This document shows, piece after piece, positions 53,605 through 64,000 of a DNA stretch of 64,000 nucleotides. Source of the DNA: Synechococcus sp. WH 8016. GTDB taxonomy: Bacteria > Cyanobacteriota > Cyanobacteriia > PCC-6307 > Cyanobiaceae. Each line of letters opens with the position of its first letter. Within the stretch, counting starts at the first letter, position 1. Under the pieces are notes generated by a model. That model saw only the letters and a program-made list of their open reading frames with translations, did no database searches and was not told where the DNA came from. Position numbers and translations under genes: made by a program. The stretch covers positions 248,001 to 312,000 of the forward strand of contig NZ_AGIK01000001.1 of the NCBI RefSeq assembly GCF_000230675.1, written 5' to 3'.

Positions 53605-54372
53605 ATGAATCCTCTGGGAAGAGCCGTCGCCACTCGTCGCAGCACCCGGGATGACATTCCTGTTGCCCGTCGCTCGAAACCTGCTCCTCGTCAGCGACGG
53701 AGCGGTTTTGGAGTTTTTTTGGCCTGTCTCCTCGTGGGGGGAGGAAGTTTGGCGGCTGTTTGGTTAGGGCCAGGGTTGTTGGCGCGTCGTTCTTTTTGGT
53801 TTCCTTCGGCTCCAGTTCCGGTGGTGGAAGGGATTGAAGCGCCGCCAGATGCCGATGGTCGCCTGCTTGGACATTTTCCTTATGACGAGGCGATTGCCAG
53901 CCAACTCGTGCCCGTTGAGGCTGGAATTGAGTTGCACCAGGATGCAGCCTTGGCCCTGGATTCGATGCGCCGTGCCGCAGCTTCCGATGGAATCGATCTA
54001 AGGCTGATCAGTGGTTATCGCTCCCATACGTTGCAGCAAGGGATTTTCTTTGATGTGAAATCAGAAAGAAATCAAACCGCCGAAGAGCGGGCCAAGGTTT
54101 CGGCACCGCCGGGTTATTCCGAGCACAGCACTGGTTATGCGATTGACCTTGGCGATGGCAGCCGTCCAGATACCAATCTTTCTGTCTCTTTTGAGACGAC
54201 TCCGGCATTTCGTTGGTTGCAGGATTACGCCGCTAGTTATCACTTCACGCTGTCCTTCCCTGAAGTGAATCCTCAGGGTGTGAGCTATGAGCCTTGGCAC
54301 TGGCGCTTTGAGGGTTCAGCGGAGGCTTTGCGCCAATTTGAACCCGCACGTCAGCTGGCTCTTGGGCGTTGA
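53605..54372 (+). CDS. D-alanyl-D-alanine carboxypeptidase, VanY-like (M15B)
   Basis: A 255-residue zinc carboxypeptidase trimming peptidoglycan stem peptides. A basic N-terminus and one membrane helix (GVFLACLLVGGGSLAAVWLG) anchor it with the catalytic domain in the periplasm. Zinc-site blocks are 'LISGYRSHTLQQGIF', 'PPGYSEHSTGYAIDLGD' and 'SYEPWHWRFEG'. ATGs at 53590 and 53605 are both possible. It overlaps the U32 gene start by 4 bp. Confidence 0.92.
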   Translation: MNPLGRAVATRRSTRDDIPVARRSKPAPRQRRSGFGVFLACLLVGGGSLAAVWLGPGLLARRSFWFPSAPVPVVEGIEAPPDADGRLLGHFPYDEAIASQLVPVEAGIELHQDAALALDSMRRAAASDGIDLRLISGYRSHTLQQGIFFDVKSERNQTAEERAKVSAPPGYSEHSTGYAIDLGDGSRPDTNLSVSFETTPAFRWLQDYAASYHFTLSFPEVNPQGVSYEPWHWRFEGSAEALRQFEPARQLALGR

Positions 54373-62862: not shown

Positions 62863-62887
62863 AAAAAAACCCCCGCCGTAGCAGGGG
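62863..62887 (-). terminator. Rho-independent terminator
   Basis: On the minus strand CCCCTGC-TACG-GCGGGGG followed by seven T bases. The stem is seven pairs closed by a stable UACG tetraloop. It begins 17 bp after the stop of the IPGDMY-repeat gene. Confidence 0.85.
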
Positions 62888-62904
62888 CCGTTGATTGTTC
62901 TGCC

Positions 62905-63477
62905 TCAGAACAACTCATTAGCTGGTTGAAGTCCAATGATTGCACCTCTTTCGGAGCCTCGGTCGAAGCAGTAACCAGTGCAAAAGTTTTCGCCAGGAAC
63001 ACCGCTACCCATGCCGACTTGCATCTCGTAGCCGATGCTGCCGTTGACCTGTTGCACCAAAGCATCGTCGGCAAATCCAGTGTCACATGTGGGTGTGCAA
63101 GTCTCGCCAATGAAACAGGCAGGTGTTGGCGACCAAGCATCGGATGCCAGCTTGAAAGGGCCTGTGTGAGAACCCTCTGGGCCAACGTTAGTTAGAACAT
63201 CGTAGACATTGGCATTTGCGTTGGAGTCTCGATCGTAATTGGCTGGTCGATACATGTCCCCAGGAATGTACATGTCCCCAGGGATGTACATATCGCCAGG
63301 GATAGCGCGGCTGTTGGTTAAAGCATCCTGTTGAATGCCTCGAAAATCGGCGCCATCAACTGTCCACCAGCCAACTTCTTTATCAGCTCCTTCTGGGTTG
63401 TAGTCGGTGTGGAGAGCATTCTTGATCTGGGCGTTGCCGACGTGAGAGTAGGCATCGAAGGTAACCATGTGAGGCAT
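62905..63477 (-). CDS. Hypothetical protein with IPGDMY tandem repeat
   Basis: A 190-residue protein from the ATG at 63477 (MPHMVTFDAYSHVGNAQ); the frame is open to 63561. It is acidic, with no signal peptide or membrane helix. Near residues 60-80 it carries three IPGDMY units. The C-terminal half has eight cysteines (ACFIGETCTPTCDTG, 'ENFCTGYCFDRG'), suggesting disulfides or metal binding and an extracellular life. No family was recognised. It is a single-gene unit with its own terminator and shares an upstream element with the next gene. Confidence 0.6.
   Translation of the reverse strand: MPHMVTFDAYSHVGNAQIKNALHTDYNPEGADKEVGWWTVDGADFRGIQQDALTNSRAIPGDMYIPGDMYIPGDMYRPANYDRDSNANANVYDVLTNVGPEGSHTGPFKLASDAWSPTPACFIGETCTPTCDTGFADDALVQQVNGSIGYEMQVGMGSGVPGENFCTGYCFDRGSERGAIIGLQPANELF
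63251..63304. repeat. Three tandem 18-bp repeats
   Basis: The units are tacatgtccccaggaatg, tacatgtccccagggatg and a third, diverged unit (tacatatcgccagggat). They lie in frame and encode the repeated hexapeptide IPGDMY on the minus strand. Near-identity of the first two units points to recent duplication. Confidence 0.85.
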
Positions 63478-63508
63478 TGATTTAGGTGCGGTGGAGGGTT
63501 GTCCCCTC

Positions 63509-63526
63509 TCGATGAACACACCATCT
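63509..63526 (-). repeat. Shared upstream element, copy B
   Basis: AGATGGTGTGTTCATCG on the minus strand, about 32 bases before the ATG of the IPGDMY-repeat gene; 17 bases are identical to copy A at 63971-63987. The bases just before both ATGs also agree (CAC-Y-TAAA-W-CA-ATG). Confidence 0.7.
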
Positions 63527-63600
63527 TGGGAATCAAAGGAACAGCTGATGATCTGCCTCAAGCAGTGCTGTGAGGTTGCTCACAGGTGCAGTGAGGCAAT

Positions 63601-63622
63601 AAAAAAACCCGCTCGTGGCGGG
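63601..63622 (-). terminator. Rho-independent terminator
   Basis: On the minus strand CCCGC-cacga-GCGGG followed by seven T bases, 32 bp after the stop of the small peptide gene. It insulates that gene from the IPGDMY gene. Confidence 0.8.
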
Positions 63623-63653
63623 CCAACCAGAAACTTGTGAATAGAGGGACTCT

Positions 63654-63929
63654 TCACTTTTTCCCGTTAGGATTAATCGTTGGATGATACTTATCCCCCA
63701 CAGTTGCTTTTTCCATCAGATTTAGCCAAGTGGTTGATGATCTTGTATTTGTTGATTGAGTTCCGGAAGTTGAACTTGAGGTAGTTGATGTTGTTTGAGA
63801 TGAGCTCACCTCATCATCATCTCCGCAACCTGATAGCAGTAAGATTCCTAGGAAACCACCATTCATGTCTTGAAGATCAACGAGTTGCAGCTCTTGATCG
63901 GTAATTTCGTTGATGAAAGAAGTCGTCAT
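63654..63929 (-). CDS. Small peptide with double-glycine-like leader / lipobox
   Basis: A 91-residue protein starting at the ATG at 63929 (MTTSFINEITDQELQLVDLQ). Residues 13-25 (ELQLVDLQDMNGG) fit the double-glycine leader pattern (EL..V...GG) of peptides exported by peptidase-containing ABC transporters. The next segment, FLGILLLSGCGDDD, also reads as a lipobox (LLSG-C). The rest is a Ser/Thr-rich low-complexity linker and a short basic tail. No positive charge precedes the hydrophobic stretch, which argues against a normal lipoprotein signal. The frame continues upstream to the window edge. Confidence 0.55.
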   Translation of the reverse strand: MTTSFINEITDQELQLVDLQDMNGGFLGILLLSGCGDDDEVSSSQTTSTTSSSTSGTQSTNTRSSTTWLNLMEKATVGDKYHPTINPNGKK

Positions 63930-63970
63930 TGTTTTAAGTGTGTTGTGCATATACCGAAGGTTTCTTCCCC

Positions 63971-63987
63971 CGATGAACACACCATCT
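63971..63987 (-). repeat. Shared upstream element, copy A
   Basis: AGATGGTGTGTTCATCG on the minus strand, about 41 bases before the ATG of the small peptide gene. It is identical to copy B at 63509-63526. In this copy an ATG inside the element opens a 19-codon frame whose stop overlaps the peptide start (CAATGA). Confidence 0.7.
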
Positions 63988-64000
63988 CCCGACTCAATGG

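Follow-up and report, generated by a model that had tools for sequence, protein, structure and literature searches.

A putative CRP-type promoter module recurs before unrelated export-type genes in marine Synechococcus and its relatives

The locus described here consists of two genes, A and B, near the end of a 64,000-nucleotide stretch of Synechococcus sp. WH 8016 (the window, meaning the whole stretch that was analysed). Its closest described counterparts are the cAMP-CRP promoters (class II and tandem-site class III in E. coli, SyCRP1 in Synechocystis), with which it has in common the palindrome TGTGA-N6-TCACA and, in relatives of the strain, a regulator whose recognition helix has R-E---R, encoded close to a cyclase gene; counted from the proposed start, its second site would also fall at the class II position. 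Unlike these promoters, it has two sites at a fixed 22-bp spacing, a near-invariant GATGGT and a 5′ hairpin, it stands nearly unchanged before dozens of unrelated export-type genes, and the regulator is missing in the strain. SyCRP1 also controls pili, and cyanobacterial CRP sites, some of them in picocyanobacteria, were predicted by Xu and Su 2009, who list crp among the picocyanobacteria only for MIT9313, MIT9303, CC9311 and CC9605 (PMC2633013). Their main text describes neither the module nor a secretome regulon, though the supplementary tables may contain single sites, and our literature search found no description of the promoter module. The other related system is the CCRG-2 RiPPs, or double-glycine peptides, of marine picocyanobacteria (model NF033456; described in PMC8120280, citing Aharonovich and Sher 2016), since many genes behind the promoter encode such peptides. 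Unlike that family, gene B does not match NF033456 at E ≤ 1 despite its double-glycine leader, and RTX proteins, pilins and Sec-type proteins are likewise encoded behind the promoter.

The original prediction held that both genes are preceded by the same 17-base element, 32 and 41 nt before the ATG, that their start codons lie in a similar context (CACYTAAAWCAATG) and that each ends in a hairpin plus T-run, and all of these points were confirmed (Table 1). When the 17-mer was searched with up to three mismatches, three matches were found in the window against 0.22 expected, a count reached in 0 of 100 shuffles, and the third match, at 54367, has unrelated surroundings and none of the other promoter parts. 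In the two genes the element belongs to a conserved unit of about 80 bp, of which it forms just the downstream end, and the promoters of both contain an exact TGTGA-N6-TCACA operator. What was first described as a homologous 5′ leader is indeed homologous, but the upstream palindromic sites had been overlooked, and their presence makes the unit a promoter rather than a leader alone. Genes A and B would each form a single-gene transcription unit under the same CRP-type promoter, as part of the explanation favoured below. Gene A has an IPGDMY repeat in three copies as well as the module WWTVDGADF; gene B has a leader of the double-glycine type (MTTSF...QELQLVDLQDMNGG), which is also seen in other peptides under this promoter, then a lipobox-like FLGILLLSGC and finally a tail rich in Ser and Thr. 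Neither protein matched Pfam or NCBIfam beyond low-complexity or lipoprotein-signal models.

Table 1. Features of the two window genes and their putative promoters (window positions).
Feature	Position	Strand	Remarks
Intrinsic terminator, gene A	62868..62889	-	Hairpin + T-run
Gene A	62905..63477	-	190 aa; member of modular 'MPHxVTF' family
5′ UTR hairpin, gene A	63494..63508	-	GAGGG-GACAA-CCCTC
17-base element, gene A	63510..63526	-	AGATGGTGTGTTCATCG; putative -10 to just past putative start
Putative start A, gene A	63513	-	Predicted from spacing
GATGGT (putative -10), gene A	63520-63525	-	Predicted from spacing
Site 2, gene A promoter	63548..63561	-	Partly conserved palindrome TTGA-N6-TCAT; information profile positions 24-39
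Site 1, gene A promoter	63568..63584	-	TGTGAGCAACCTCACAG; CRP-type palindrome TGTGA-N6-TCACA; among most conserved blocks, 113 copies
Intrinsic terminator, gene B	63606..63624	-	Hairpin + T-run; immediately 5′ of gene A promoter
Gene B	63654..63929	-	91 aa; double-glycine leader MTTSFINEITDQELQLVDLQDMNGG
5′ UTR hairpin, gene B	63955..63972	-	CGGGGG-AAGAAA-CCTTCG
17-base element, gene B	63971..63987	-	
Putative start A, gene B	63974		
GATGGT (putative -10), gene B	63981-63986		
Site 2, gene B promoter	about 64009-64022		Window-equivalent; beyond window edge
Site 1, gene B promoter	64029-64045		Window-equivalent; beyond window edge

Searching the genome of the strain and other marine Synechococcus, as originally proposed, turned up many further copies. 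In the strain itself, a search for the element with up to three mismatches and a separate one for the upstream palindrome converged on the same eight places, and at each of them 58 bp separate palindrome and element. These eight copies were used to make a sequence-only model of 81 positions, which recovered them at E < 1e-16, as expected given its origin, with a clean gap to the next match in that genome at 2e-4. The promoter was found in 28 of 31 genomes of the genus (that of the strain among them), with up to 24 copies per genome, and in 41 of 300 genomes of the family, representing 8 of 59 genera. The 58-bp distance is exact in 173 of 174 distinct sequences. A strict exact-pattern scan of 84,980 species genomes returned 37 stretches, all from marine Synechococcus or Prochlorococcus bar one contig assigned to a Porticoccaceae MAG (NYWV01000050.1, L324). 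This contig carries a complete promoter copy followed by an RTX-like gene and is probably misbinned, as that gene resembles one at a Cyanobiaceae locus (L283).

Across 113 distinct copies, conservation peaks at TGTGAgCAAgaTCACAG (site 1), TGA-N6-TCA (site 2) and GATGGT, and the centres of the two sites lie 22 bp apart. GATGGT is a poor match to a sigma-70 -10, and a consensus scan for a standard sigma-70 promoter at this place found none, though the two positions corresponding to A-11 and T-7, which are the most constrained ones of a -10, are kept (A61, 1.88 bits; T65, 1.82 bits). In AT-rich Prochlorococcus copies GATGGT drifts to GATAGT and site 2 to TTGA-N6-TCAA. If the A of CATCG were the transcription start, the spacing would make GATGGT the -10 and place site 2 at -41.5 and site 1 at -63.5. 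The explanation that we consider probable is a dispersed CRP-type secretome regulon with one shared promoter: a CRP-family dimer would bind TGTGA-N6-TCACA and also the weaker site TTGA-N6-TCA, two helical turns closer, and would recruit RNA polymerase to the poor -10 inside the 17-base element. After its first few bases the predicted mRNA would form a small hairpin, often with a GNRA or AACAA loop, which may protect its 5′ end; an unstructured spacer rich in C and A would lead from there to the ATG. The products of the regulon would be double-glycine peptides, RTX proteins, pilins and Sec-type small proteins.

In most relatives the regulator would be a CRP with the recognition helix RETASR, which has cyclic-nucleotide and Crp HTH domains. 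Residues R-E---R of the CRP recognition helix read TGTGA, and in an alignment they are placed in RETASR as in the helix RETVGR of E. coli CRP. Among the 300 genomes, 34 have both promoter and this CRP, 7 only the promoter, 27 only the CRP and 232 neither, so that the CRP occurs in 34 of 41 promoter-positive against 27 of 259 promoter-negative genomes (odds ratio 42, p = 2e-21, uncorrected for shared ancestry and with the association weak within the genus alone). In G003 and G039 the CRP is present and promoters were not detected. A gene for a CHASE2-class III cyclase lies beside the CRP gene or within about 3 kb of it in three genomes (G024, G100 and G085) and a relative of the cyclase within about 7 kb in G212. 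The distance between the CRP gene and a C39 (double-glycine) exporter is about 6 kb in G085 and 10 kb in G100.

The RETASR CRP is absent from the assembly of the window's own strain, and its syntenic position is empty, with flanking genes that match those of G024 at about 88% identity. Next to the place of the CRP in relatives, a CHASE2/class III cyclase reading is split over two frames (L269:11189-12977, G000:C3), which by its sequence is a frameshift or an assembly error. Four more genomes (G021, G027, G011 and G034) likewise have promoters without a RETASR CRP, the first of them being a single-contig genome. In four genomes of the genus that lack the CRP, site 1 has 0.95 mismatches of 13 against 0.41 elsewhere (uncorrected p = 0.02, with a comparison group that includes genomes without a CRP status look-up), whereas GATGGT mismatches do not rise (0.21 against 0.19), and some of the cassettes are no longer intact. 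The lineage has kept its promoters, with weak signs of decay, and they may be either recently orphaned or served by another factor. Since the strain has no RETASR CRP, we call the window copies CRP-type rather than members of a working CRP regulon.

Alternatively, the promoter may be real and its palindrome recognised by another member of the CRP family, for example a PtrA-like or ferritin-flanking protein, in a manner unrelated to cAMP. The strain keeps its eight promoters together with NtcA, a PtrA-like protein and two ferritin-flanking proteins but no RETASR CRP, and Xu and Su 2009 report CRP-like sites also in 13 crp-less genomes and suggest other family members as binders (PMC2633013). 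However, none of the four CRP-family proteins of the strain has the R-E---R residues in its recognition helix, and genomes free of the promoter contain NtcA and PtrA-like proteins too, whereas the presence of the RETASR protein follows that of the promoter across genera. We regard a different binder as unlikely. A more specific version of the CRP-type secretome regulon, in which cAMP-CRP acts through a standardised promoter-plus-leader cartridge (two CRP-type sites, GATGGT and 5′ hairpin) joined in varying combinations to shuffled coding modules for exported peptides, RTX proteins and pilins, and in which loss of the CRP, as in the lineage of this strain, leaves an orphaned, decaying regulon, seems to us an even bet.

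The 5′ UTRs start with strong stems in 49 of 100 distinct sequences, against a mean of 7 (maximum 14) after shuffling, and these hairpins come in many different compensated sequences, with GNRA in 28 of 37 tetraloops. The spacer between hairpin and ATG is unstructured and CA-rich, and by eye no obvious Shine-Dalgarno sequence was seen next to the ATG. With a compensated hairpin directly downstream, and with the element alone folding better than shuffles, the 17-mer might itself act in RNA, transcription starting upstream and the element forming a GATG-N7-CATC hairpin, a small-RNA target or similar within the 5′ UTR. The GATG/CATC pairing of the element shows no covariation, however, as GATG is constant and the other arm becomes AGTC, CACC and others, and a stem within the element was rejected on this ground. 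The fixed 58-bp distance to a DNA palindrome, together with the lack of any Rfam match at gathering score for the element at seven loci, fits a promoter better, and we consider an RNA-level role quite improbable. The sole Rfam match was a glutamine-II riboswitch (RF01704, E 2e-10) at L007:1766-1831, unrelated to the element.

Returning to the shared CRP-type promoter, the genes behind it are by their sequences unrelated and biased towards export-type products, although the counts stand without a genome-wide background for the classes. By simple ad hoc rules, 155 distinct downstream proteins were divided into 47 double-glycine leader peptides, 17 RTX-repeat proteins, 17 members of the gene A 'MPH' family, 3 pilin-like proteins, 23 with an N-terminal hydrophobic segment and 48 in no class, the last including several evident Sec-type leaders (e.g., MTSIKTIAAASLAAGLSLLS) and some mis-chosen or broken frames. 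Model searches with 91 downstream proteins gave 14 matches to CCRG-2 RiPPs (NF033456), 9 to RTX and 3 to prepilins. These products are presumably exported, and the co-regulated secreted-protein family suggested at the outset is borne out insofar as the further copies stand mostly before export-type proteins. The idea of modular shuffling also gains from the coding parts, where modules are common to genes with different N-termini. A common 6-mer joins 23 pairs of a double-glycine peptide and an MPH protein against 0.4 after shuffling; one Prochlorococcus double-glycine peptide contains WWTVDGADF of gene A, and in two other double-glycine peptides the GG is followed by PHxTTW, with which the gene A family starts.

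Similarity of this kind could in principle come from recent duplication only, with whole cassettes copied and the 5′ part undiverged under no functional constraint. Tandem near-identical arrays do exist: one in G024 (L115, G024:C1:2279387-2283933), about 8 kb from the CRP gene, has six promoter copies, mostly at a period of 870 bases, and encodes near-identical Sec-type proteins. The strain also holds a decayed copy (L004, G000:C1:365238-365266), in which the element directly follows a truncated palindrome and continues into the reading of a disrupted double-glycine leader, to judge from its sequence a cassette remnant. Yet the 76 bp differ sharply in conservation from one part to another, and the promoter persists across eight genera, AT-rich Prochlorococcus included, while the coding parts behind it are mostly unrelated, and duplication alone is in our view very unlikely. 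A shared coding N-terminus, D-G-V-F-I, which had been offered as another possibility and which is in frame and open in both window genes, does not extend across the family and can be dismissed, as over 148 copies the element falls into the three frames relative to the ATG in 67, 42 and 39 cases.

If the CRP-type secretome regulon is real, it would tie scattered and mostly uncharacterised secreted peptides of picocyanobacteria, CCRG-2 included, to one named regulator, and would suggest a role for cAMP signalling in these abundant ocean phototrophs. Its on-switch would be recognisable from sequence, so the regulon could be listed for each genome and its control tested by a single gene deletion. 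The promoter is thus a testable handle on the control of secretion in marine Synechococcus and some Prochlorococcus.

A few smaller observations concern the cassettes themselves. In the strain, a perfect promoter (L003/L056, G000:C1:357033-357111) stands before a gene for a Sec-type small protein with a stop after the signal sequence, which reads as a recently broken gene. Copies at the very ends of contigs in G009 and G029 (G029:C3:177-255, G029:C13:177-255, G009:C23:32-110) suggest that assemblies probably break at near-identical cassettes, and draft genomes may hold more copies than were counted. A fixed upstream insertion end, a T-run plus ATTGC, was present at 17 of 164 copies, compared with some 0.8% of background windows (15 of 1988), and was rejected as a general cassette boundary, being enriched and yet confined to a minority. 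Finally, in gene B and at L093 a lipobox-like LLSGC/LLGGC directly follows the double-glycine leader, an unusual pairing of two export signals.
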